The notes beneath the pieces were generated by a model, which searched no databases, was not told the DNA's origin, and was given only the letters and a program-made list of their open reading frames with translations. Positions 47,370 through 58,488 of a stretch of 64,000 nt of DNA are shown here, in pieces; within the stretch, counting starts at the first letter, position 1; each line of letters begins with the position of its first letter. A program made the position numbers and the translations under genes. The stretch comes from Burkholderiales bacterium (GTDB taxonomy: Bacteria > Pseudomonadota > Gammaproteobacteria > Burkholderiales > Ga0077523): contig JALHMS010000011.1 in the NCBI GenBank assembly GCA_022843925.1, forward strand, positions 62,001 through 126,000, written 5' to 3'.

Positions 47370-48281
47370 ATGACATTCCGACTGCGATGGTCGATCGTTG
47401 CCGCGCTTGCGCTGGTGTCGACAGGCTGCTCCGTCCAGGACCTCGTGCTCCGTCGTGTCGCCGATGCGGCCGCCGGAGAGGCTGGCGTCTTCGCATCGGA
47501 GTCCGACGTGGTGCTCGCCGGTGCAGCGATCCCTGCGGCGCTCAAGGCCAACGAGGCGCTGCTGGTCCGACAGCCCACGCACCAAGGCCTCCTCCTGTCC
47601 GCTGCCAGGGGCTTCACGCAGTACGCCTACGCGTTCGTGCAACTGCCTGCCGACGAGCTGGAAGCAGCTGACCTCCAGGGCGCCTATCGCGAACGTCAGC
47701 GTGCCTTGCGCTTGTATCAGAGGGCGCGCGACTACGGCCTGCGGGGGCTGCGACTGGACGGCACCGCGCAGGCCGGGGTGCTCCGGCGCGCGCCGGCCAC
47801 GGCACTCGCCGCCATGGGACGGGCCGACGCGGAACTGCTGTACTGGACGTCCGCGGCATGGGCGGCTGCCGTAGCGCTGGCGAAGGACGATCCGGAAATG
47901 CTCGCCGCGCTGCCCATCGTCGAGGCCATCGCAGCGCGCGCAGACGCCCTCGCTCCCGATCTCGATCGAGGTGCGCTCCAGGTCTTCCTCATCTCGTTCG
48001 AGACTTCACGTCCCGGCGCCACGGCAGGGTCCCTCGTACAGGCGCGCGAGCGCTTCCGGAAGGCCGTGCGACTGTCGCAGGGCAGGCAGGCCGCGCCGTT
48101 CGTCGCACTGGCCGAAGCCGTGGCCGAGCGCCATGGCGAACCTGCCGAGTTCGACGAGCTGCTGCGGTCCGCGCTCGCGGTGGACCCCGACGCCACGCCC
48201 GAGTGGCGTCTCTCCAATCACATCGCGCAGCGGCGTGCCCGCTGGCTGTCGACGCAGAAAGACCTCTTCTTCCCGGAGTGA
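47370..48281 (+). CDS. TRAP transporter TatT-like lipoprotein
   Basis: A 303-residue protein with a lipoprotein signal (ALALVSTGCS; Cys about residue 20), then an all-helical body with tetratricopeptide-like repeats, as in TatT (T component) of TRAP systems, which gather the ligand-binding protein in the periplasm. ADELLYWTSAAWAAAVALAKDDPEMLAALP is characteristic in outline. It starts a three-gene TRAP operon, eight bases before dctP. Confidence 0.83.
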   Translation: MTFRLRWSIVAALALVSTGCSVQDLVLRRVADAAAGEAGVFASESDVVLAGAAIPAALKANEALLVRQPTHQGLLLSAARGFTQYAYAFVQLPADELEAADLQGAYRERQRALRLYQRARDYGLRGLRLDGTAQAGVLRRAPATALAAMGRADAELLYWTSAAWAAAVALAKDDPEMLAALPIVEAIAARADALAPDLDRGALQVFLISFETSRPGATAGSLVQARERFRKAVRLSQGRQAAPFVALAEAVAERHGEPAEFDELLRSALAVDPDATPEWRLSNHIAQRRARWLSTQKDLFFPE

Positions 48282-48288
48282 TCCGTCA

Positions 48289-49311
48289 GTGAAATCCATC
48301 GCGCTCCTGTGCGTCGCCTGTGCGGCGGCGTGCCTCTTCGCCTTCCTGCCTCGCGTCGGCGCCGCCGAACCCTCGACGCTCAAGATGTCCACGATCGCCC
48401 CCAAGGGCTCGATCTATCACCGCGTGCTGCAGGAGGTGGGCGAGGCCTTCAAGGGGAACCGCGGCACTGCCGCCCGCGCCATCGTGTACCCCGACGGTGT
48501 GCAGGGCACGGAGTCGGACGTCGTGCGCCGGTTGCGCATCGGCCAACTGGATGCGGCGCTGCTCACCGTGATGGGGTTGAAGGAGATCGACGCCTCGCTG
48601 ACGGCGCTGCAGTTCATGCCCATGGTGTTCCGCTCGTGGGAGGAGGTGGATCTCGTCCGGAACCGGCTGCGCAACGTGTTCGAGGCGCAACTTGCGAAGA
48701 AGGGCTTCGTCGTGCTCTTCTGGGGCGACGCCGGCTGGGTGCACTTCTTCAGCAAGACGCCCATGGCGATGCCCGAGGATTTCAAGCGGGCGCGCATCTT
48801 CGTCTGGGAGGGCGACGGCCCGCAGATGGCGCTCATGAAGGGCATCGGCTATTCGCCGGTCGGATTGCCCGTGGCCGACATGCTGCCGTCGCTGGAGACC
48901 GGGATGATCGATACGGTCCCGATGGTCCCCGTGTGGGCGCTGGCGGGTCAGTTCGACCGCGTGACGCCGCACATGCTCGCGGTGAAGTGGGTGCCGATCG
49001 TCGGCGCGGCGGTGATGCGCCAGGCCACGTTCGATGCGCTGAGCCCTGCCACCCGCGAGGCCGTCATGCAGGCCTCGGCGAAGGCGGCGGCCCAGCTCCA
49101 GGCGCATCGCGTGACCCAGGACGAGGAGTCGCTGCGCGCCATGCAGGCGCGCGGGCTGCGCATCCAGCCCGCGACCCCCGAGATCGAGGCCGCATGGCGC
49201 GGTTTCGCCTCGAAAGTGTGGCCGCAGGTCCGCGGGGCGATGGTGCCTGCCGAGACGTTCGATCAGGTGCAGGCGATCCTGACCGAGTACCGCGCAAGCA
49301 AGCGGCCGTGA
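48289..49311 (+). CDS. TRAP transporter solute-binding protein (DctP family)
   Basis: A 340-residue periplasmic binding protein with a signal peptide (LLCVACAAACLFAFLPRVGAAE). Conserved features: LKMSTIAPKGSIYHR at the start of the mature chain, FKGNRGTAARAIVYPDG, DAALLTVMGL, and the carboxylate-clamp Arg region FKRARIFVWEGDGPQ. The start is GTG 48289. The ligand is likely a carboxylate, but the binding Arg alone does not identify it. Its stop TGA overlaps a GTG codon of the permease gene. Confidence 0.88.
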   Translation: MKSIALLCVACAAACLFAFLPRVGAAEPSTLKMSTIAPKGSIYHRVLQEVGEAFKGNRGTAARAIVYPDGVQGTESDVVRRLRIGQLDAALLTVMGLKEIDASLTALQFMPMVFRSWEEVDLVRNRLRNVFEAQLAKKGFVVLFWGDAGWVHFFSKTPMAMPEDFKRARIFVWEGDGPQMALMKGIGYSPVGLPVADMLPSLETGMIDTVPMVPVWALAGQFDRVTPHMLAVKWVPIVGAAVMRQATFDALSPATREAVMQASAKAAAQLQAHRVTQDEESLRAMQARGLRIQPATPEIEAAWRGFASKVWPQVRGAMVPAETFDQVQAILTEYRASKRP

Positions 49312-49313
49312 CG

Positions 49314-51143
49314 ATGCCCGCGGTTCCCGCGGCCAGCCCGGCGCATCCCGGCGCGTTCCACCGGTTCGAGAACGTGGTGGTCGCATGCCTCTTCGCGCTG
49401 ACCGTGCTGCTGCCCATCCTCGAGATCGGCCTGCGCGCCTTCCTGCACGTCGGCATCGAGAACCTCGCGAACCTGGTCCAGCACATCACCCTCGTGGTGG
49501 GGATGCTGGGCGCCGCGGTCGCTGCACGGGAGGGGCGCCTGCTCACGCTGGCCGTCGCGGGCTTCCTGAAGGGGCGCGCGGCTGTCGTGGCGAAGTCGGG
49601 AAGTGCCGTCGTCGCCGTGGCCGTGGCGGTGCTCCTGGCCCTGGCTGCGCTGGAATTCATCGGCGTGGAGCGTTCCGCCGGCGCCACGCTCGCTTACGGC
49701 GTGCCGGTGTGGATCGTGCAGGCTGCGATCCCGCTCGGATTCGTCGTGATCGCGTGGCGGCTCGTGACCACCTCGTCCGCGTCGTCGGGGAGGCGGGCGG
49801 CGGTCACCGCTGCGGCCACCGGCCTCGTGGCCATGGTGTGGTGGAGCGGATTGTCGCCCGATGCGATCACGGTCCCCGCCATCGTCGTCATCCTGGTCGC
49901 GACGGTGTTCGGTGCCCCCGTGTTCGTGGCCATCGGCGGCATCGCGCTCGTGCTCCTGACGGGCGACGGCGTACCCGCCGCATCGGTGGCGCTCAACCAC
50001 TACGGCCTCGTCTCGAACCCTACGCTGCCCGCGATTCCCATCTTCACGCTGGCCGGATACCTCCTCGCGGAGAGCCGCGCACCGAACCGGCTGCTGGAAG
50101 TGTTCGACGCGTTCTTCGGCCGGATGCGCGGCGGCGCGGCCATCGCCGCCGTGCTGGCGAGCACCTTCTTCACCTGCTTCACCGGCGCCTCGGGCGTCTC
50201 GATCCTGACGCTGGGCGGGCTCGTGATGCCGCTCCTGCTCGCGCAAGGCATGGCCCCCCGTCACGCGCTCGGGCTGGTGACGTCCGCGGGCCTGCCGGGG
50301 GTGATCCTCATGCCGGCGCTCCCGCTCCTCCTGTACGCGATCGTGGCCGGGCAGAGCATCGAGGACATGTTCCGTGCGGGTCTGCTGCCGGCGCTGCTGA
50401 TGCTGGTGCTCGTGTCGATCTGGGGAGTCCGTGCACAGGGCCGTTCGACGGCCCCACGCACGGCGTTCTCGTGGTCGCGCGCACGGCAGGCGCTCGCCGC
50501 TGCGAAGTGGGAACTGACCATGCCCTTCGTGCCGATCCTCCTGCTCGCGACCTCCGTGGCGACGCCCGTCGAGGCCGCTGCCTTCACCGCGGCGTACGCG
50601 GCCTTCATCGTCACCGTCGTCCATCGCGATCTGCGGATCCGGACCGATCTGCCGCGGGTGGCCACCGAGTGCGCGCTGATGATCGGCGGGATCCTGCTGG
50701 TGCTGGGTGTGGCGATGGCCCTCACCAACTATCTGGTCGACGCCGAGATCCCCGTCCGGGTCGTCGAATGGGTGACGTCCCACATCGAATCGCGCTGGGT
50801 CTTCCTGCTGGCGTTGAACGTCGCGCTGCTGCTGGCGGGCTGCGTGATGGATGCCTACACCGCCATCGTCGTGCTCGTGCCGCTCGTGGCGCCGCTCGGG
50901 GTCGCGCTCGGCGTGCATCCGGCGCATCTGGGCATCATCTTCCTGGCCAATCTCGAGATCGGCTACCTCACGCCGCCCGTGGGGATGAACCTGTTCTTCT
51001 CGTCGTACCGGTTCGGGCAACCCATCGGCACGGTGTTCACGGCCATCCTGCCGGTCCTGGGATGGCTCATGGCTGCACTCCTCCTGATCACCTACGTGCC
51101 CTGGCTGAGCACCGCCCTGCTGCAAGGGGCGTCTGCGCATTGA
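49314..51143 (+). CDS. fused TRAP permease (DctQ-DctM)
   Basis: A 609-residue inner-membrane protein in which the small DctQ subunit (four helices, residues about 20-180; LVQHITLVVGMLGAAVAARE is typical) is fused to the large DctM subunit. DctM has about 12 helices with GLVSNPTLPAIPIFTLAGYL, FTGASGVSILTLGGLVMP and, near the end, NLEIGYLTPPVGMNLFFSS. Such DctQM fusions are common. ATG 49314 lies three bases after the dctP stop; a GTG at 49308 in the same frame, overlapping that stop (GTGA), is an alternative. It is driven by a sodium gradient in known relatives. Confidence 0.88.
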   Translation: MPAVPAASPAHPGAFHRFENVVVACLFALTVLLPILEIGLRAFLHVGIENLANLVQHITLVVGMLGAAVAAREGRLLTLAVAGFLKGRAAVVAKSGSAVVAVAVAVLLALAALEFIGVERSAGATLAYGVPVWIVQAAIPLGFVVIAWRLVTTSSASSGRRAAVTAAATGLVAMVWWSGLSPDAITVPAIVVILVATVFGAPVFVAIGGIALVLLTGDGVPAASVALNHYGLVSNPTLPAIPIFTLAGYLLAESRAPNRLLEVFDAFFGRMRGGAAIAAVLASTFFTCFTGASGVSILTLGGLVMPLLLAQGMAPRHALGLVTSAGLPGVILMPALPLLLYAIVAGQSIEDMFRAGLLPALLMLVLVSIWGVRAQGRSTAPRTAFSWSRARQALAAAKWELTMPFVPILLLATSVATPVEAAAFTAAYAAFIVTVVHRDLRIRTDLPRVATECALMIGGILLVLGVAMALTNYLVDAEIPVRVVEWVTSHIESRWVFLLALNVALLLAGCVMDAYTAIVVLVPLVAPLGVALGVHPAHLGIIFLANLEIGYLTPPVGMNLFFSSYRFGQPIGTVFTAILPVLGWLMAALLLITYVPWLSTALLQGASAH

Positions 51144-51171: not shown

Positions 51172-52368
51172 TCATCGGGGAACGGGACAGGCCGCCTCGT
51201 GCAGCACCGATTCGAGGTTGCCGACGATGTCGCTCCAGTCGAGGCGTTGGGCGTCCACAGCCGCCCTCGCGCCGAGTGCGGTGGCCCGGGCCATGTCGCC
51301 GGCGAGGGCGGCCGCCTCCGAGATGAAGCGCTCCGGGTCGTCCAGCGGCGCCAGGATGCCGTTCTCGCCCTGACGGATGTGCTGACGGGCGGCACCATAG
51401 TCGAAGGCCACCACGGCCAGCCCGCACGCCATCGCCTCGACCGTCACGTTGCCGTAGGTCTCGGTCCGACTCGGGAAGATGAAGATGTCGCCGGAGGCGA
51501 TGTGTCTTGCCAGTTCCGTGCCGCGCTGCATGCCCGGGAAGACCGCGTACGGCATCCGCCGCTCCATCCCGGCGCGGGAGGGCCCGTCGCCCACGACCAC
51601 GAACTTCGCGGTCGGGACCCGCCGGCGGATGGCTTCGAAGGTGAGCGCGATCATCTCCGGGTCCTTCTCCGGCGCCAGGCGTCCCATGTGGAGCACCACG
51701 GGGTCGCTGTTCCGGGCGCCCCACAACGTCCGAAGCCCGGCGCTCCTGCGCGCCGCCGTGAACACCTGGGTGTCGACCCCACGCGAGATCACGCGGACGT
51801 TCCGGAAACCGTCGTGCGTCAGCGCGGTCCGCATGGCCTCGGTGGGCACGAGCGTTGCGCGTGTCCGGTTGTGGAAGCCGCGGAGATAGGCGAGCACGGG
51901 CGTCTTCAGCCATCCGACGCCGTAGTGCTGGCTGTAGGCGTGGAAGTTCGTCCGGAAGTCCGAGACCACCGGCAGCCCGAGCTTCGTCGCAGCCTGCAGG
52001 GCGGACCAGCCGAGGGGGCCTTCCGTCACGATGTGGACGATGTCCGGTCGTTGCGCCTGCCACATCCGGTGCAGCCTCCGCGGGGCGGGCAGTCCCATCT
52101 TCAGTTGCGGGTATCCGGGGATCGGCACGCCCTGCGTGAGGACTTCCTCGAAGCGCGCGTCCGCCCGCGGTACCTCCGTCGGCTTCTGCCGCGGACGTAT
52201 CAACTGGATCGTGTGATCCCGATGGCGCAGACCCTCGACGAAGTGGGCGGCGGTGATCGCGACGCCGTTCACTTCCGGCGTGTACGTCTCCGTCACCACT
52301 GCGATGCGCAGCAGCGTGCGTCGGCCTGCTGTCTCGTCGACCCGTAGGGGGATGGCGTCTCTCTGCAT
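51172..52368 (-). CDS. GT4-family glycosyltransferase (Agt-like)
   Basis: A 398-residue GT-B fold transferase. The start IAVVTETYTPEVNGVAITA is the acceptor-side loop, VTEGPLGWSALQAA and SDFRTNFHAYSQHYGVGWL continue the N-domain, and the donor-binding motif SRTETYGNVTVEAMACGLAV carries the E-x7-E pair (about residues 305-313). Proteins of this form, next to PlcP-type phosphoesterases, include the diacylglycerol glycosyltransferase Agt of Agrobacterium-type bacteria. GAGGAG lies eight bases before ATG 52368. A PhoB-box-like repeat lies 50 bases upstream. I infer glycolipid synthesis during phosphate starvation; other GT4 acceptors are possible. Confidence 0.85.
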   Translation of the reverse strand: MQRDAIPLRVDETAGRRTLLRIAVVTETYTPEVNGVAITAAHFVEGLRHRDHTIQLIRPRQKPTEVPRADARFEEVLTQGVPIPGYPQLKMGLPAPRRLHRMWQAQRPDIVHIVTEGPLGWSALQAATKLGLPVVSDFRTNFHAYSQHYGVGWLKTPVLAYLRGFHNRTRATLVPTEAMRTALTHDGFRNVRVISRGVDTQVFTAARRSAGLRTLWGARNSDPVVLHMGRLAPEKDPEMIALTFEAIRRRVPTAKFVVVGDGPSRAGMERRMPYAVFPGMQRGTELARHIASGDIFIFPSRTETYGNVTVEAMACGLAVVAFDYGAARQHIRQGENGILAPLDDPERFISEAAALAGDMARATALGARAAVDAQRLDWSDIVGNLESVLHEAACPVPR

Positions 52369-52418
52369 GGCGCGGCTCCTCAGATGCGCGCACGGTGCCA
52401 TCCCTTCGCGAAAATCCG

Positions 52419-52436
52419 ATGACGCTCCCGTGACAA
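52419..52436 (-). promoter_or_regulatory. candidate PhoB box upstream of the glycosyltransferase
   Basis: On the minus strand TTGTCAC-GGGA-GCGTCAT gives two seven-base half sites, each matching CTGTCAT at five positions, at the 11-base period expected of a PhoB site. It lies 50 bases before the ATG and in the same direction. Confidence 0.45.
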
Positions 52437-52517
52437 TCCGACTGCGAAGGCCTCGAGACGGGTCGCCGGCACCGTCGTGATCCGATCGGCTGACGGCGCC
52501 CGATTCGCATCGAAATT

Positions 52518-52546
52518 CCGTCACGACTTGCGCGACGAGTTGTCAC
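52518..52546 (+). promoter_or_regulatory. candidate degenerate PhoB box upstream of the membrane protein
   Basis: CCGTCAC, TGCGCGA and TTGTCAC are three seven-base units separated by four bases each, so the two good TCAC units are 22 (2 x 11) bases apart; the middle unit is poor. It lies 59 bases before ATG 52606. This is the weakest of the four sites. Confidence 0.3.
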
Positions 52547-52605
52547 GAAGGCTTCGTACGGTGACGGGATGCGACCGACGGGTGTCGCGTACCCACGAGG
52601 ACCCC

Positions 52606-53214
52606 ATGAAAGAATTCCTGCACGCCCTCGAAGTACAACGCTGGGACGATCACCGCTTCTATCATCACAGCCGGATCAACCAGTCGCTGCACTTCATCAG
52701 CGCCGCGAGTTTCATCGTGGCGTACGCCTTCCTGTTCGTGGATCCCGCCGTGTCGGCGCTGATCGGCTGGTTGTTCTCGATGACCACGCGACAGTCCGGC
52801 CACTTCTTCTTCGAGCCGCTCGGCTACGACGAGGTGAACCAGGTGACCAACGAGTACAAGGAAGCCGTGAAGGTGGGTTACAACCTGAAGCGGAAGGCCG
52901 TGCTGATCGGCGTGTGGGCGCTTTCGCCCCTCGTGCTGCTGCTGGACCCGTCGCTATCCGGACTGGTGACACCGCACGAAACCGCCTGGGGATTCGTGCA
53001 CAACGTCGGGTACATCTGGCTCGCGCTCGGTGTGGCCGGCCTCCTGTTCCGGACCGTGCACCTCTTCTTCCTGCGCGACGTGCAGACGGGTCTCATCTGG
53101 ATGATCAAGATCCTGACCGATCCGTTCCACGATCTCTGGCTTTATCGCAAGTCACCGCTCCATCTTCTGCGCGGCGAGCTGATCGATCCGATGACGCACG
53201 CGCAACGCCATTGA
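52606..53214 (+). CDS. DUF962/Mpo1-like membrane protein
   Basis: A 202-residue inner-membrane protein with about four hydrophobic segments. The start HHSRINQSLHFISAASFIVA and the later RQSGHFFFEPLGY resemble the HxxxxNxxxHF and GHxxFE metal-binding blocks of DUF962/Mpo1 proteins, which oxidise 2-hydroxy fatty acids in yeast. The last 40 residues form a cytoplasmic tail (LTDPFHDLWLYRKSPLHLLR). It is divergent from the glycosyltransferase and convergent with the aminotransferase. The family call is tentative; the gene call is firm. A role in lipid metabolism would suit its neighbours. Confidence 0.8.
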   Translation: MKEFLHALEVQRWDDHRFYHHSRINQSLHFISAASFIVAYAFLFVDPAVSALIGWLFSMTTRQSGHFFFEPLGYDEVNQVTNEYKEAVKVGYNLKRKAVLIGVWALSPLVLLLDPSLSGLVTPHETAWGFVHNVGYIWLALGVAGLLFRTVHLFFLRDVQTGLIWMIKILTDPFHDLWLYRKSPLHLLRGELIDPMTHAQRH

Positions 53215-53233
53215 GCCTGTTCCGGTATCGCGC

Positions 53234-54895
53234 TCACCCGAGCCGGTGCCGGAGCATCTCCCGGAGCACGTTGCGGCGGATCTTCCGCGCGGTGACTTCT
53301 TGACTCGTCCACCACCATCCGTCGCGGCGCATCGCCAGGGCTGCCGCGACGAATCGCTCGGCGACCGCATCGAAATCGGCATCGGAGTAGTTGAGGCTGA
53401 AGATCAGCCGGCCGGTGCCGACCCAGCTGAGTGCGAGGCCCTCGGCACGGAGGTAGTACTGCAGCATCCAGTGGTACCTCGAGGGCTGTGTGAAGCCGAC
53501 CGACCAGATCGACGACAGGTTGGCCACGCGCAGCGGCAGGCGGGCCTCAGCCAGACGGGCGTTGAGATCGGCGGCGCGCGCATTCCACCGGTCGTCGAGG
53601 CCCTGGTAGATCGCGCGGATATCGTCGTCCTCGATGCGCTCCAGGAAGCACTGCATGGCGCCCATCACGTACGGATGGGCGTTGAAGGTGCCGCGCGCGA
53701 AGCAGATGTCCGCCGGCCGGTCGTCACGAAAGCGCTTCATCACCGCGTGCTTTCCGCACAGGACGCCGATGGGGAATCCGCCCGCGACGGTCTTCCCGTA
53801 GGTCACCATGTCGGCACCCACGCCGTAGTACTCCTGGGCGCCCCCCGGCGCGAGCCGGAAGCCGACGAACACCTCGTCGAAGATGAGCACGATGCCGCGC
53901 GCCGTACAGACCTCGCGCAGCCTGCGCAGCCACGCGGCGTAGGCCTCTCGGTCGATGCCGCGCACGTCACGGCCATGGACGAGCGAGCCGTCGCCGGGCG
54001 CGGAAGCGTTCGGATGCAGTGCCTGCAGCGGGTTCACCAGCACGCAGGCGATGTCCTTTCGGGTGCTGAGCACGTGCAGCGCCTTGTCGTCGAGATCCTT
54101 CAGCGTGTAGGTCTCGCGCGCCGGCACCGGATTGCCCACGCCGGGTTGCACGTCGCCCCACCAGCCGTGATAGGCCCCGCAGAACCGCACGACGTGGGTC
54201 CGCTTCGTGTGGTAGCGGGCGAGGCGGACTGCCTGCATCACGGCCTCCGTGCCGGACATGTGGAACGACACCTCGTCCATACCGGAGATCGCGCGCAGCC
54301 TCCGCACGTTGTAGGCGACCGAGGGATGGTAGGCACCGAGCACCGGACCGAGCGATGCGGCGATCGCGCTGCCGCGCGCCATGCAGTCCTTGTAGAAGTC
54401 CACGCCGAACACGTTGACGCCGTACGACCCGGTGAGATCGTAGAACTCGTTCCCGTCCAGATCGACGACCTTGACGCCCGATGCCGACTGCACGAATGCA
54501 CCCGCGTCGAGACGGCGGCGGAGGTGCCGGCTGAACTGGAACGGCACTCGGTAGGCGCCAGTGAACTGGAGATCCGATACGCCTTCCCGGGTCTCGCCGG
54601 TGAGCTGCGCCGTCTTCGCGAACCGGGTCCGATACAGCGCCGCGAGGCGATCGAACCCCGCCATGCGCCGGCTCACGAAATCCGGGGGGGCGTCGTCGGC
54701 TCGGAAGAAACGTTCGCCCTCGAATTCGTAGTAGGGAACGAACTTGGCCAGGGTCCGGCTCATGCGGGCGTGGCCCGCCAGAGACCGATGCTTCGCGCGC
54801 GACAGCGCGATGCGCGCCTTCAGTTTCGGGGTGACGGCGGCAAGTGTTGCCGCGCCGAGCAGGGAGAGGGCAAGGGTCGAGTCCATGCGTAGCAT
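53234..54895 (-). CDS. class III aminotransferase (glutamate-1-semialdehyde aminotransferase-like)
   Basis: A 553-residue PLP enzyme. The fold-type I core has FHMSGTEAVMQAVRLARYHT, FCGAYHGWWGD, the PLP Asp in LIFDEVFVGFR and the Schiff-base Lys in TYGKTVAGGFPIG. It is about 120 residues longer than HemL, with an N-terminal extension that starts hydrophobic (STLALSLLGAATLAA) and continues KLKARIALSRAKHRSLAGHA, a block I recall from long aminotransferases of this type. The role is unknown; a polar lipid or polysaccharide amine is one guess. The ATG at 54895 lies only a few bases from the psd start on the other strand. Confidence 0.87.
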   Translation of the reverse strand: MLRMDSTLALSLLGAATLAAVTPKLKARIALSRAKHRSLAGHARMSRTLAKFVPYYEFEGERFFRADDAPPDFVSRRMAGFDRLAALYRTRFAKTAQLTGETREGVSDLQFTGAYRVPFQFSRHLRRRLDAGAFVQSASGVKVVDLDGNEFYDLTGSYGVNVFGVDFYKDCMARGSAIAASLGPVLGAYHPSVAYNVRRLRAISGMDEVSFHMSGTEAVMQAVRLARYHTKRTHVVRFCGAYHGWWGDVQPGVGNPVPARETYTLKDLDDKALHVLSTRKDIACVLVNPLQALHPNASAPGDGSLVHGRDVRGIDREAYAAWLRRLREVCTARGIVLIFDEVFVGFRLAPGGAQEYYGVGADMVTYGKTVAGGFPIGVLCGKHAVMKRFRDDRPADICFARGTFNAHPYVMGAMQCFLERIEDDDIRAIYQGLDDRWNARAADLNARLAEARLPLRVANLSSIWSVGFTQPSRYHWMLQYYLRAEGLALSWVGTGRLIFSLNYSDADFDAVAERFVAAALAMRRDGWWWTSQEVTARKIRRNVLREMLRHRLG

Positions 54896-54919
54896 TTACC
54901 AGTGTCGTTTTACGAATCC

Positions 54920-55801
54920 ATGACCATTCGAAACTCAATTCTTCGTATCGCCCAGCAGGAGGACCTCAATTTCCTCCTGACCAACCGCATTCCCCGACGT
55001 TGGCTGACGATGCTCATGGGGCGGTTCAGCCGGATCGAGCATCCGTGGGTGCGGGACCTGTCCATCGCGGTATGGCGCTTCTTCGGCGATCTCGATCTGT
55101 CGGAGGCGCGCGAGACCTCGTTCAAGAGCATGCACGACTGCTTCATCCGCGAGTTGAAGCCGGGCGTCCGACCGATAGACGCCGAAGCGTCCGTCCTCAC
55201 GAGTCCCAGCGACGGGATCGTCGGTGCTTGCGGGCAGGTCGCGGACGGCGTTGTGTTCCAGGCCAAGGGCTTCCCGTACCGGCTCCGCGATCTGCTGTGC
55301 GATCCAAGCCTCGAGGATCGCTATCGCGACGGCACGTATGTCACGTTGCGATTGACGTCGAACATGTATCACCGGTTCCACGCCCCCCACGATTGCCGCG
55401 TCCGGCGGGTGACGTACATCTCGGGGGACACCTGGAACGTGAACCCCATTGCGCTGAAGCGGGTGGAGCAGCTGTTCTGTCGGAACGAGCGGGCGGTCAT
55501 CCAGACGTGGATCGGTGAGTCCGAGCATCTCGTGACGCTGGTGCCTGTCGCGGCGATCCTCGTCGCGAGCATCCGGCTGCACTGCCTGGCGAGTCCGCTG
55601 CACCTGCGCTATCGCGGGCCGAACGTCATCGATTGCGATGCCGGTTACGCGAAGGGGCAGGAGATGGGGTGGTTCGAGCACGGCTCGACGATCATCGTGT
55701 TCGCGCCCCGCGGATTCACATTGGCGGCCGGGGTTCGGGACGGTGCCCGGATCCGGATGGGGGAGGCGCTGATGCGTCTTCCGACAGTAGCCAAGGGGTA
55801 G
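54920..55801 (+). CDS. psd: phosphatidylserine decarboxylase
   Basis: A 293-residue (as called) proenzyme that makes phosphatidylethanolamine at the inner membrane. TSPSDGIVGACGQV, RLTSNMYHRFHAPHDCRV with its catalytic His, TWNVNPIA, NERAVIQTW and VPVAAILVASI are the family blocks. The self-cleavage site is in FEHGSTIIVF, where the LGST of many enzymes is HGST; the Ser becomes the pyruvoyl group. It is a proteobacterial type (about 290-300 residues). Start choice is difficult: a GTG at 54902 and ATG at 54920 are in frame and neither has a good ribosome site. The divergent aminotransferase begins at 54886 or 54895, so the two genes leave almost no room for promoters. Confidence 0.9.
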   Translation: MTIRNSILRIAQQEDLNFLLTNRIPRRWLTMLMGRFSRIEHPWVRDLSIAVWRFFGDLDLSEARETSFKSMHDCFIRELKPGVRPIDAEASVLTSPSDGIVGACGQVADGVVFQAKGFPYRLRDLLCDPSLEDRYRDGTYVTLRLTSNMYHRFHAPHDCRVRRVTYISGDTWNVNPIALKRVEQLFCRNERAVIQTWIGESEHLVTLVPVAAILVASIRLHCLASPLHLRYRGPNVIDCDAGYAKGQEMGWFEHGSTIIVFAPRGFTLAAGVRDGARIRMGEALMRLPTVAKG

Positions 55802-55839
55802 GCCGGCCCGGTCGTCGGCGCAGCGGCGAATCCCGGAGT

Positions 55840-56069
55840 GCGGGCGTCGGGCGGAGCCCGACCCACGGGGGTTGTTTCCAGCGCTGACCGATCCAGTGTC
55901 GAAGGTGATCTCGTGGGTCGAGCTGCGCGCGACGCGGCACCGGCTTGGGCGTCGCAGTGAATCCAGGAACGCGGGCGTCGGGCGGAGCCCGACCCAAGGG
56001 GGTTGTTTCCAGCGCTGACCGATCCAGTGTCGAAGGTGATCTCGTGGGTCGAGCTGCGCGCGACGCGGC
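55840..56069 (+). repeat. pair of 99-bp direct repeats containing hairpins
   Basis: 55840-55938 and 55971-56069 are almost identical (one visible difference: CCCACGGG against CCCAAGGG), 131 bases apart. Each contains GTCGGGCGGAGCCCGAC, a perfect 7-base stem with GGA loop, and further on GACCCA...GTGGGTC arms that would enclose the rest. The pair fills the gap between psd and the convergent phosphoesterase (55802-56120), and nothing else is there. It is a different family from the array at 9317. Confidence 0.9.
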
Positions 56070-56120
56070 GTTGTCGTGAGCACCGCTGCATCCAATCGAG
56101 ACTGCGCACTGCAGCGCGCG

Positions 56121-56993
56121 CTACGGCGCCGTCACCGTCTCTTCCGTGATGGTGCGGGCAAACGCGGGCGCGCCCCTCGGAATCACCGGTACGCCCGGAA
56201 TGGAGCCCACCGTGAAGTCGCTACGCCGCAACGCCTCGATCGCCTTCCAGTCGATGATCCGGAGTTCGCCGTCCTCCAGTTCGACCAGCGCCGTGAGGCT
56301 CTCGACCCAGTCGCCGTCGTTGCAGTACAGGATCCCGTCGATGTCCCGGATCTCGGCCTTGTGGATATGACCGCAGACGATGCCGTCGAAGTCGCGTCGC
56401 CGCGCTTCGTCCGCGAGCGCATCCTCGAAGTGGGTGATGTAGCTGACCGCGTTCTTGACCTTGTCCTTCATGAAGCGCGACAGGGACCAGTAGGGGAGGC
56501 CCGCCTTGGCGCGGGCGCTGTTCAGCCACTGGTTCAGCTTCAACGTGAACATGTACAGCTGGTCGCCCAGATGTGCGAGCCACTTGGCACCGCAGACCAC
56601 GGCATCGAAGAGGTCCCCGTGGATGACCAACAGGCGGCGACCGTCAGACGTCGTGTGCGTGTACTCGTCGCAGACCTCGATGCCGCCGAAGGCCAGACCG
56701 AGAAAGTGCCGCATCACTTCGTCGTGGTTGCCCGCCACATAGATCACGCGCGTGCCCTTGCGTGCCTTCCGCAGAACCTTCTGCACGACGTCGTTGTGCG
56801 ACTGCGGCCAGAACCAGCGACGCCGCATCTGCCAACCGTCGACGATGTCGCCGACGAGAAACAGCGTGTCCGACTCGGTGTGTCGCAGGAACTTCAGGAG
56901 ATGCTCCGCCTGGCAGGTCGGCGTGCCCAGGTGTACGTCTGAGATCCAGATGGTCCGGAATCGGTAGTGCGGCAGCGCGTCGTCGTCGTCCAC
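56121..56993 (-). CDS. PlcP/LpxH-like metallophosphoesterase
   Basis: A 290-residue calcineurin-type phosphoesterase, cytoplasmic or inner-membrane associated. All metal motifs are present: ISDVHLG (about residue 17), LVGDIVDGW, AGNHDE, VIHGDLFD and GHIHKAEI. The segments CQAEHLLKFLRHTESDTLFL, WPQSHNDVVQKVLRKARKG and YCNDGDWVESLTALVE match the family of PlcP, the phospholipid-cleaving enzyme of Sinorhizobium-type phosphate starvation, which databases usually name UDP-2,3-diacylglucosamine diphosphatase (LpxH-like). A true LpxH lacks the WPQSHNDVVQK block, so I favour PlcP. A strong PhoB-like half site is 68 bases upstream. Confidence 0.85.
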   Translation of the reverse strand: MDDDDALPHYRFRTIWISDVHLGTPTCQAEHLLKFLRHTESDTLFLVGDIVDGWQMRRRWFWPQSHNDVVQKVLRKARKGTRVIYVAGNHDEVMRHFLGLAFGGIEVCDEYTHTTSDGRRLLVIHGDLFDAVVCGAKWLAHLGDQLYMFTLKLNQWLNSARAKAGLPYWSLSRFMKDKVKNAVSYITHFEDALADEARRRDFDGIVCGHIHKAEIRDIDGILYCNDGDWVESLTALVELEDGELRIIDWKAIEALRRSDFTVGSIPGVPVIPRGAPAFARTITEETVTAP

Positions 56994-57061
56994 TGGGCGG
57001 GATCGTGCGATTGAGTTCTGCCGATGATGACTATCTTTCGCTTCAGCCGCGTTTCACTGCC

Positions 57062-57079
57062 ATAGCGATTTTGTGACAG
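57062..57079 (-). promoter_or_regulatory. candidate PhoB box upstream of the PlcP-like gene
   Basis: On the minus strand CTGTCAC-AAAA-TCGCTAT. The first half matches CTGTCAT at six of seven positions and the spacer is A-rich as in known sites; the second half matches three of seven. It lies 68 bases before the ATG and in the right direction, downstream of the GDPD terminator. Confidence 0.45.
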
Positions 57080-57114
57080 CAGGTGGGCCGTTCCTCGCAT
57101 GGCTCCCGTCGCCG

Positions 57115-57146
57115 CCCCCTCCGAACCCGGCCCGGTTCGGAGGGGG
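57115..57146 (-). terminator. hairpin terminator after the glycerophosphodiesterase gene
   Basis: Arms 57115-57127 and 57134-57146 form a perfect 13-base GC-rich stem (CCCCCTCCGAACC / GGTTCGGAGGGGG) with a six-base loop, 45 bases after the GDPD stop. There is no clear T-run. It separates GDPD from the PlcP-like gene's own promoter region. Confidence 0.7.
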
Positions 57147-57190
57147 ACCACCTGTACCGACGGACGACACTCAGGCCTGGCGCCGCGGGT

Positions 57191-58399
57191 CTATCGGCGA
57201 CGCGCCTTCGCTGCCAGCACGAGGCCGAGCCCTGCGAGCATCAGCGCGTACGTCTCGGGCTCCGGGACGGCCACGACGGCCCGGGCGGCGAATCCCGTGT
57301 CCGGATAGTCCGTGAACACGCCGTCGACGCCGAGGCGGAAGTAGGCTTCCATCTCTAGCTGGGGGTCGCTGAAGCCGTACTGGCTACGATCGTTGCGGAA
57401 GGTCCACGTGTGGACGAGCAGACCGGCGGCGTGCGCCGCGTCGATCACGCCCGTATCGCCCTCGATGCGCCGATCGTTGATCGTGATCACCCCGTCACCG
57501 TTGCGATCGACGTTGTCGGCGACCGTCCGCAACAGGTACGGCTTCCACGGGCCGACGCCGTCGGCGTACGTCGCGATCTCCGCGAGACCCTCGGGCGTGA
57601 GCAGGTCGGAGAAGAGACGGCTGTCGCCACTGACCACGAAGTCGTAGGGCTGGCGATAGGGCGCCACGAGGGAAAGGCTGCCGTCGGGGTTCACGTCGTC
57701 GGCGTCCACCAGCTGCACCAGGCGGATGTCGGTCGTGCTGTTCAGGTACTTCAGATTGCTCACCTCGAACGACTGGATGAACACCGGCGCCGTCCGCGTG
57801 TTGCCGTAGGCCGCGTGAAGCTTGCTCACCAGCGCGTCCTCCATCGGCAGGCCGAGATCCCGGTGGTAGGTCGAGTGCTTGATCTCGGGGTAGATGCCGA
57901 TGGTGCGGCCGAGCGATGCGCTGCGCGACTGTGCCAGTGCGATGACTTCGTCGAGGGTGGGGATCTCGTAGAGTCCGTTCTGGCTCTGGTCGCGACTCGC
58001 GACGGGCTGCACGGCGCGCAGCGTCTTGATCTCCGCCAGCGTGAAGTCGGAGGCGAACCAGTCGGTCGTGGAGACGCCATCCAGCATCCGGGTCGTCTTG
58101 CGAGCCGCGAATTCCGGCCGGGATGCCACGTCGGTCGTGCTTGCGAGCGTCGGCTCGTGGCGTGCGATCAGCACGCCTTCGCGGGTCATCACCAGATCGG
58201 GCTCGATGAAGTCGGCACCGAGATCGATCGCCTTGGCGTAGCTCTCCAGCGTGTGCTCCGGCGTGTAGCCGGAGGCCCCGCGGTGACCGATGACGAGCGG
58301 CGCGCTGCCGTCGAGCGTGTCCCACGCCATGGCGGGGATGGAGATGCCGGTCAACGCGACACCGATGGCCAACGGAAGCAGCTTGAGGCGGTGGAGCAT
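57191..58399 (-). CDS. exported glycerophosphodiester phosphodiesterase with PEP-CTERM tail
   Basis: A 402-residue secreted enzyme that hydrolyses glycerophosphodiesters to glycerol 3-phosphate and an alcohol. A signal peptide (LLPLAIGVALTGISIPAMA) is followed by the GDPD motif GHRGASGYTPEHTLESY and the metal-binding FIEPDLVMTREGVLIARHEP (about residues 48-97). A Ca-binding-like DRNGDGVI (about residue 317) is also present. The C-terminus VPEPETYALMLAGLGLVLAA then RRR is a PEP-CTERM sorting signal: PEP motif, hydrophobic segment, basic end. It would be processed by an exosortase encoded elsewhere. GGGAG lies nine bases before ATG 58399. A PhoB-like site is 71 bases upstream. GlpQ/UgpQ-type enzymes are classic Pho-regulon members. 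Confidence 0.92.
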   Translation of the reverse strand: MLHRLKLLPLAIGVALTGISIPAMAWDTLDGSAPLVIGHRGASGYTPEHTLESYAKAIDLGADFIEPDLVMTREGVLIARHEPTLASTTDVASRPEFAARKTTRMLDGVSTTDWFASDFTLAEIKTLRAVQPVASRDQSQNGLYEIPTLDEVIALAQSRSASLGRTIGIYPEIKHSTYHRDLGLPMEDALVSKLHAAYGNTRTAPVFIQSFEVSNLKYLNSTTDIRLVQLVDADDVNPDGSLSLVAPYRQPYDFVVSGDSRLFSDLLTPEGLAEIATYADGVGPWKPYLLRTVADNVDRNGDGVITINDRRIEGDTGVIDAAHAAGLLVHTWTFRNDRSQYGFSDPQLEMEAYFRLGVDGVFTDYPDTGFAARAVVAVPEPETYALMLAGLGLVLAAKARRR

Positions 58400-58470
58400 G
58401 TTGTTTCTCCCTGGACGGATTCGATTGTTCCCATGGCCGAGAAGGCCGTCCTGGACGGTAGGCGCCTGGA

Positions 58471-58488
58471 ATGACAATCGATTGACGA
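58471..58488 (-). promoter_or_regulatory. candidate PhoB box upstream of the glycerophosphodiesterase
   Basis: On the minus strand TCGTCAA-TCGA-TTGTCAT: two (C/T)GTCA units exactly 11 bases apart; the second half matches CTGTCAT at six of seven. It lies 71 bases before the ATG and in the right direction. Confidence 0.5.

Follow-up and report, generated by a model that had tools for sequence, protein, structure and literature searches.

A probable PhoB-regulated lipid-remodelling locus with a conserved aminotransferase, decarboxylase paralogue and Mpo1-like trio in a Burkholderiales genome

Background

The closest described counterpart of the locus presented here is the PlcP-Agt remodelling system of Sinorhizobium, marine heterotrophs and Pseudomonas aeruginosa, in which genes for a PlcP-type phosphoesterase and a GT4-type glycosyltransferase carry PhoB boxes and are predicted to lead from diacylglycerol to glycolipid, as described in passages of PMC4796936 and PMC8528852. 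The locus occupies positions 51172–58488 of a 64,000 bp stretch (hereafter the window; G000:C11:62001-126000) of a Burkholderiales bacterium genome of 5.57 Mb, which is assembled in 64 contigs and is 99% complete. Both gene types, with PhoB-type boxes (in the window, an exact one for GT4 and a degenerate site for the phosphoesterase), are common to this locus and to the PlcP-Agt system; the difference is that here the two genes flank, and are often separable from, a trio encoding a class III pyridoxal phosphate (PLP) aminotransferase, a phosphatidylserine decarboxylase (PSD) paralogue and an Mpo1-like protein, which is not named in those passages of the two papers. A description of the trio was likewise not found among the matches listed from the searched literature (open-licence PubMed Central). 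Judged from its sequence and that of its relatives, the locus is probably a PhoB-regulated lipid-remodelling module. The trio is the main novelty. The enzyme genes as a set are found grouped in many bacteria of soil and water, apparently as a means of exchanging phosphorus-containing membrane lipids for others when phosphate is scarce, and the trio among them may make an as yet undescribed lipid.

The BtaA-BtaB betaine-lipid pathway is similar to the module in being a phosphate-linked route to a zwitterionic lipid on diacylglycerol with an N-methyltransferase, and its genes are found near the module in some genomes. BtaA uses S-adenosylmethionine. The module differs in having a transaminase and a decarboxylase, and BtaA was not found in 32 of the 39 genomes that carry the aminotransferase. 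The PssA-PSD-PmtA pathway, which leads from phosphatidylserine to phosphatidylethanolamine (PE) and phosphatidylcholine (PC), resembles the module in using a PSD-family enzyme and also a PmtA-like methyltransferase, which in the module occurs mostly in alphaproteobacteria, whereas the module PSD belongs to a separate clade, stands beside a further PSD and is accompanied by the aminotransferase and the Mpo1-like protein. The likeness to the Mpo1 2-hydroxy fatty acid dioxygenase (PF06127) consists of a weak family-wide profile match and conserved histidines; the window protein falls under the curated cut-off, and the resemblance here is one of sequence.

Organization of the locus

51172–52368, minus strand: GT4-family glycosyltransferase with Pfam domains Glyco_transf_4 and Glyco_trans_1_4, candidate diacylglycerol glycosyltransferase (Agt-like role)
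52420–52435, minus strand: exact PhoB-type box (YGTCA-N6-YGTCA), 52 bases 5' of the GT4 start, kept in G003/L040, a near relative of the same genus
52518–52546, plus strand: two exact half-sites with a 22-base period (N17), 5' of the Mpo1-like gene, unchanged in L040
52606–53214, plus strand: Mpo1-like helical protein of 202 aa, weak family-wide PF06127 match, core gene
53234–54886, minus strand: class III PLP aminotransferase (PF00202), N-terminal helix interpreted as anchoring it in the membrane, core gene
54920–55801, plus strand: PSD paralogue (TIGR00163), core gene
56121–56993, minus strand: PlcP-type metallophosphoesterase (PF00149), predicted phospholipase C
57062–57079, minus strand: degenerate PhoB-like site (8/10 positions) 5' of the phosphoesterase, largely kept in L040
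57191–58399, minus strand: GlpQ-type glycerophosphodiester phosphodiesterase (GDPD) with a PEP-CTERM tail (PF03009 and PF07589)
58472–58487, minus strand: exact PhoB-type box (YGTCA-N6-YGTCA), approximately 73 bases 5' of the GDPD start, one of the 18 exact sites of the genome

The aminotransferase and PSD genes are divergent with approximately 33 bases between them, and the Mpo1-like and aminotransferase genes are convergent. An earlier note on this DNA had named the six genes and four boxes. All six genes are present as open reading frames (ORFs) with Pfam or NCBIfam profile matches. The boxes at 52420–52435 and 58472–58487 are exact and share the orientation of their downstream genes, GT4 and GDPD; those at 52518–52546 and 57062–57079 are weak, the former consisting of two exact half-sites at a 22-base period just as the note had described.

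A conserved core of three genes

Two sets of loci, both collected by homology to the aminotransferase, were compared. The first comprises the region around the aminotransferase gene in 39 genomes of the order, and the second comprises 80 loci in named genomes, the best 80 of at least 596 relatives. Eight of the latter share a contig with a locus of the first set, which leaves 111 distinct loci; for the gene counts over these 111, the query proteins were taken from six of the module loci. The aminotransferase is carried by 3 of the 12 genomes of the family and by 39 of the 399 genomes of the order, spread over 23 genera. By tblastn, the aminotransferase, PSD and Mpo1-like genes are present in 39/39 loci of the first set, along with GT4 in 34 and a PlcP-like gene in 21, usually in the order GT4, Mpo1-like, aminotransferase, PSD, with flanks that vary. 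The second set contains the aminotransferase in 80 loci, PSD in 80, the Mpo1-like gene in 79, a GT4-type gene, often only about 30% identical, in 65 and PlcP within 9 kb in 12. The single locus with no Mpo1-like match is L134, whose contig stops 594 bases past the aminotransferase. The placement of the Mpo1-like protein and the long aminotransferase within the module, proposed previously for this window, is therefore upheld, as together with PSD they make up its constant core (39/39 and 79/80 loci), and the gene-order comparison supports the three as an evolutionary unit.

The trio is found in Beta- and Alphaproteobacteria, many environmental betaproteobacteria among them, and the titles of carriers include Bradyrhizobium, Nitrobacter winogradskyi, Methylocapsa, Variovorax, Zoogloea, Dechloromonas and some metagenome-assembled genomes called Gammaproteobacteria. 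The 29 Bradyrhizobium-type loci run from GT4 through the methyltransferase and Mpo1-like genes to the aminotransferase and PSD genes. A PmtA-like methyltransferase is encoded in 34 of the 111 distinct loci, mostly alphaproteobacterial. Its nearest solved structure is 8ys9, a PE N-methyltransferase (E 6.5e-43), and the methyltransferase of L147 is below the PmtA cut-off (NF045882, 158.1 of 390 bits).

PhoB-type boxes in the window and across related genomes

Within the window, exact sites do not exceed chance (two seen; 20 of 100 shuffles give two or more), and no site lies within 3 mismatches of an E. coli-type Pho consensus. The whole genome contains 18 exact sites versus 24 for a reversed control. 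Box significance from the window or genome alone was not established by these shuffles, the reversed control or the consensus scan. Two of the 18 sites fall within this 6-kb stretch (Poisson 2e-4, for a region chosen after the fact because of its boxes). The genome's own phoB (365 bits) has two overlapping 9-of-10 sites approximately 90 bases before the match, and the surrounding 20 kb contains three such sites. The two weaker boxes do not serve as stand-alone evidence; the best 11-base-period scores of both upstream regions are no better than those of shuffles.

The count of exact boxes in the first set covers 38 loci, including that of the window. L040, which nearly duplicates the window, was excluded, and further close relatives and overlapping sites within a single array were retained. 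These loci contain 38 exact sites at the 11-bp period, and module promoters, with 6.6% of the bases, account for 24 of them. Among 20 other spacings (0 to 20), 2 to 18 sites were found for each, with 0 to 13 in promoters. The highest of these, N17 (13/18 in promoters), arises when the same 11-base array is read on by one more repeat, and it has the form of the window site at 52518–52546. The 23 other permutations of the half-site give 0 to 22 sites overall and 0 to 3 in promoters. For the second set, the eight loci on first-set contigs and L116 (not shown to be a copy) were left out, and the 42 non-alpha loci kept have 8 of their 24 exact 6-base-spaced sites in promoters representing 6.1% of bases.

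When loci were merged into representatives at 85% aminotransferase identity, an exact box was found in 9/49 GT4 promoters (shuffle mean 0.23; best other spacing 7), 4/62 aminotransferase promoters (shuffle mean 0.12; best other spacing 2) and 1/62 PSD promoters. Among non-alpha representatives, it is present in 10/58 Mpo1-like promoters (shuffle mean 0.28; best other spacing 8) and 6/22 PlcP promoters (shuffle mean 0.15; best other spacing 1). The GT4 and Mpo1-like genes often have one intergenic region in common. Five Bradyrhizobium-type loci have an exact box 63–64 bases 5' of their GT4, and no exact box was found 5' of GT4 in the 13 alpha-type representatives.

Fourteen of the exact sites of the first set are outside module promoters, one being the window's GDPD site. 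Genes downstream of 10 of the other 13 include pstS (L079), phoX (L074), ppk (L084) and a Ppx/GppA-type gene (L081) that is below curated cut-offs, and the remaining sites of those 10 precede other genes or no called genes. The sites before these four genes indicate that the motif reads Pho genes in this group. The single-genome evidence for the boxes is weak, and it is the comparison across genomes that makes them credible as candidate PhoB sites. Predicted Pho-regulon membership is marked by an exact box 5' of GT4 and GDPD and by enrichment across relatives, and is weak for the other two genes with boxes in the window.

A hydrophobic protein with no Pfam match (L072:2886-3752 and relatives) is encoded near the module in 8 of the 111 distinct loci. 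In L075, a double exact PhoB-type box is located approximately 100 bases 5' of an apparent relative of this gene.

Phosphoesterase, glycosyltransferase and glycerophosphodiesterase

The phosphoesterase contains a calcineurin-like domain (PF00149, 48.1 of 21.5 bits) and is far under the LpxH cut-off (TIGR01854, 31.8 of 190.35 bits), while a clear LpxH is encoded elsewhere in the genome (G000:C5:204036, 275.8 bits). On this low score and the separate LpxH, an LpxH identity was rejected. The remodelling model had been said to fail if this protein were the genome's LpxH, which it is not, and PlcP, a predicted phospholipase C, is its likely identity on sequence grounds. Homologues (E<=1e-40) are present in 196 of the 399 genomes of the order. 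PlcP is found in 35 of the 39 aminotransferase carriers versus 161 of the 360 other genomes (Fisher 2.5e-8, uncorrected for kinship; carriers with and without PlcP or BtaA were tallied by eye).

The glycosyltransferase has the GT4 domains expected of an Agt-type diacylglycerol glycosyltransferase, its nearest solved structures include PimA, and its best NCBIfam match is GlcN_PG_synth (130.5 of 480 bits). The GDPD scores 182 of 254 bits for NF008354. It had been counted in the module, and this was not borne out: with one weak 60-residue match among the 38 other first-set loci and matches in 2/80 loci of the second set, it is nearly absent elsewhere and was rejected as a module member. It is, by this comparison, a local neighbour outside the conserved module. 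The PEP-CTERM tail suggests a sorted or surface-linked GlpQ-type enzyme, and its gene has an exact PhoB-type box upstream.

Phosphate and lipid genes near the module

Of the 111 distinct loci, 14 contain one or more of a panel of twelve genes of the pst, pho, ppk, ppx, btaA and btaB-like types. One 16-kb stretch of L070 encodes PlcP-BtaA-BtaB-like proteins, four other ORFs, the PSD-aminotransferase-Mpo1-like-GT4 genes and PhoR-PhoB-PhoU; in L079, PlcP and a pst operon are near GT4. Four of the seven carriers that have a BtaA-family gene have it within 16 kb of the aminotransferase, although in one of these (G079) the gene is divergent and matches weakly. PF13444, the family of ornithine-lipid acyltransferases, is too common to be informative (318/399 genomes).

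In the Sphingomonas parapaucimobilis plasmid locus L185 (NZ_CP155753.1:55500-87095), the PSD, aminotransferase and Mpo1-like genes occur with a methyltransferase gene. This trio is approximately 10 kb from a class I/II aminotransferase gene, which we take to be Spt-like, an acyl carrier gene and an NAD(P)H-binding gene, and approximately 4 kb from a fatty acid desaturase gene. A sphingolipid link drawn from this plasmid was rejected, as four of the neighbours have no match at E<=1e-10 in 119 other loci.

Weighing the remodelling module

Phosphate-linked lipid remodelling, the function proposed for the locus in the earlier note, is favoured by the enrichment of boxes across genomes, a phosphoesterase that is not LpxH, the co-occurrence of PlcP with the aminotransferase and the Pho- or BtaA/B-type genes in 14/111 loci. 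Several results weigh against it. In the window, the best 11-base-period scores upstream of the Mpo1-like gene and the phosphoesterase have p of approximately 0.43 and 0.53 versus shuffles. An exact box in any module promoter is found in only 17/62 non-alpha representatives. In the second set, the N19 spacing does as well in promoters (9/19) as N6 (8/24). YGTCA-N19-YGTCA pairs are also raised 5' of the Mpo1-like gene in L075, L107, L123, L133, L142, L145, L151 and others. Among the representatives, some other spacing reaches 7 GT4 and 8 Mpo1-like promoters versus 9 and 10 for N6. In the Bradyrhizobium-type group, 22/26 exact N6 sites are in promoters and other spacings are equal to this (17/20, 20/23, 29/37) because the loci are near copies; in addition, most of these boxes overlap the PSD start codon, whose complement gives a half-site. 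The Bradyrhizobium-type boxes were discounted for both reasons. PlcP is near the trio in only 21/39 and 12/80 loci, the tally of Pho-type neighbours is uncontrolled for background, and a BtaA-family gene is present in 7/39 carriers versus 33/360 other genomes (p 0.08, not significant). This last comparison does not show the anticorrelation with BtaA looked for in a betaine-lipid replacement, and the trio was rejected in that role. On balance, the sequence comparisons give good odds that the module as a whole is a Pho-regulated lipid-remodelling unit.

Enzymes of the trio

The PSD paralogue passes TIGR00163 (153.9 of 111.75 bits) and has conserved Asp98, His154 and Gly255-Ser256-Thr257, the latter corresponding to the GS(T/S) cleavage site; these Asp, His and Ser residues are presumed to be the catalytic set of the usual PSD mechanism. 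It also retains three sequence blocks (AKG-x-x-Y, YHRxH and NER) seen in PSDs of solved structure. A further PSD is present in 38 of the 39 carriers, the exception being a genome that is 84% complete, and displacement of the housekeeping PSD by the module PSD was rejected for this reason. In a tree, 18 PSDs of the module group together and separately from 13 housekeeping PSDs encoded in the same genomes, with support of 100/100 from a bootstrap that was not fully settled. Of the 20 further PSD stretches entered, 7 gave no row, including the shorter PSD type, which is absent from the tree, and 13 were kept, some from an inner Met. Between the two groups, 21 positions are switched while being conserved in each, and some of these are beside the catalytic His and Ser.

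Lys368 and Asp340 of the aminotransferase are invariant in 34 members. Among the matches listed, the protein is closest by sequence and fold to the AMT domain of mycosubtilin synthase, followed by glutamate-1-semialdehyde (GSA) aminomutase; for the latter enzyme (HemL), its TIGR00713 score of 161.1 is below the cut-off of 527.3 bits. Residues 2–34 are helical in the structural model with modest confidence, and on this model the N-terminal helix is a probable membrane anchor. The Mpo1-like protein matches PF06127 in 29/29 aligned members at E<1 (best 8.7e-6), contains invariant His, Glu and Asn residues and gives a confident helical model (pLDDT 90). No relative of solved structure was found for it below E 0.001.

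A possible route to an amine-headgroup lipid

Under low phosphate, PlcP would strip phospholipid headgroups to leave diacylglycerol, which GT4 would glycosylate to a glycolipid, as expected from the known families. The trio, with less certainty, may form a second branch leading to a membrane lipid with an amine headgroup. In this branch, an oxo or hydroxy precursor would be supplied by the Mpo1-like protein, which may be an iron oxygenase. The membrane-held aminotransferase would add an amino group to a lipid-linked oxo-acid, and the lipid-linked amino acid so formed would lose its carboxyl group to the PSD paralogue, leaving a primary amine. In carriers with a PmtA-like enzyme, mostly alphaproteobacteria, this amine could then be N-methylated. 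The resulting lipid would resemble PE or PC, perhaps with no phosphorus in it, and would exist beside the glycolipid. Because alpha-amino acids are the substrates of PSDs and can be made by aminotransferases, the two enzymes might most simply be consecutive headgroup steps, a link of low certainty.

That the aminotransferase and PSD build an amine-headgroup lipid is accordingly offered as a tentative possibility. It is slightly more doubtful that the trio constitutes a novel pathway whose product is a glycerolipid of the amine or choline type, free of phosphorus, made through transamination at the membrane, decarboxylation by a repurposed PSD and, in alpha-type loci, N-methylation. Against this chemistry, the nearest relatives of known structure of the aminotransferase are not lipid-headgroup enzymes, and the window Mpo1-like protein is below the Pfam gathering score for PF06127 (17.8 of 24 bits).

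An unlikely alternative is that the trio provides another route to ordinary PE, or to methylated PE or PC with the Pmt-like enzyme. The aminotransferase would make phosphatidylserine from an oxidised phosphatidylglycerol headgroup, in a lipid-linked version of the serine pathway, for the PSD paralogue to decarboxylate. The retained catalytic residues and sequence blocks, the passing TIGR00163 score and the Pmt-like enzyme of alpha operons are consistent with this. It is countered by the other PSD already present in 38/39 carriers, by the switched residues beside the catalytic His and Ser, and by the little sense that a Pho-induced phospholipid route makes under phosphate limitation.

Modification of an acyl chain or a sphingoid-type base is also quite unlikely. 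The AMT domain of mycosubtilin synthase (MycA) aminates a beta-keto acyl chain, and the aminotransferase, of which this domain is the nearest structure, might do the same while the Mpo1-like protein shortens 2-hydroxy acyl chains, PF06127 being described as 2-hydroxy-palmitic acid dioxygenase Mpo1-like. The Sphingomonas plasmid, with its class I/II aminotransferase and acyl carrier genes about 10 kb from the trio, would suit such a role, whereas four of the neighbours there recur in none of the 119 other loci at the threshold above, and the constant PSD is left unexplained.

Salvage of headgroups is less probable again. Class III PLP enzymes include ethanolamine-phosphate phospho-lyase (ETNPPL), and the genes would make a phosphate-recovery chain if PSD fed PE, PlcP freed phosphoethanolamine and the class III enzyme acted as a phospho-lyase freeing phosphate. 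The aminotransferase, however, has the AMT domain and GSA aminomutase as its nearest matches, and neither the best 60 of 137 sequence matches nor the best 50 of 1703 fold matches include a chain named as a phospho-lyase. This reading also does not explain the N-terminal helix or the Mpo1-like partner, and PlcP was not found in 4/39 carriers, some of these genomes being incomplete.

Lastly, ordinary PlcP-Agt remodelling with the trio adjacent by accident is very improbable: neighbourhoods of PlcP and a glycosyltransferase with Pho boxes are documented in passages of PMC4796936 and PMC8528852, but the trio is together in 39/39 and 79/80 loci, often with no PlcP nearby, which makes the trio the constant part and contradicts an accident through conservation of gene order.

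Other features around the module

Between the PSD and phosphoesterase genes is a 131-base repeat in two tandem copies (55804–56065). Probing the genome with 100 bases of this repeat gives 260 matches; most of the listed ones belong to tandem arrays, on many contigs, in which copies are spaced approximately 130 bases apart. Beside the module is a cluster of TRAP transporter genes that includes a TAtT component (window 47370–51143), and TAtT and DctM homologues are also found near the module in L073, L085, L100, L155 and L159.

Significance

Glycolipids, betaine lipids and ornithine lipids are the usual explanation of how membrane lipids are remodelled when phosphate runs short, and the trio points to a further branch. 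If the amine-lipid pathway proposed here is true, it would supply surrogates resembling PE and PC when phosphate is short. Uncharacterised aminolipids are listed in a passage of PMC4796936 for marine bacteria studied under phosphate starvation, and a phosphorus-free amine lipid made by the trio could account for some of them. The trio also gives a gene handle for seeking an unassigned lipid in growable organisms that are open to knock-out.

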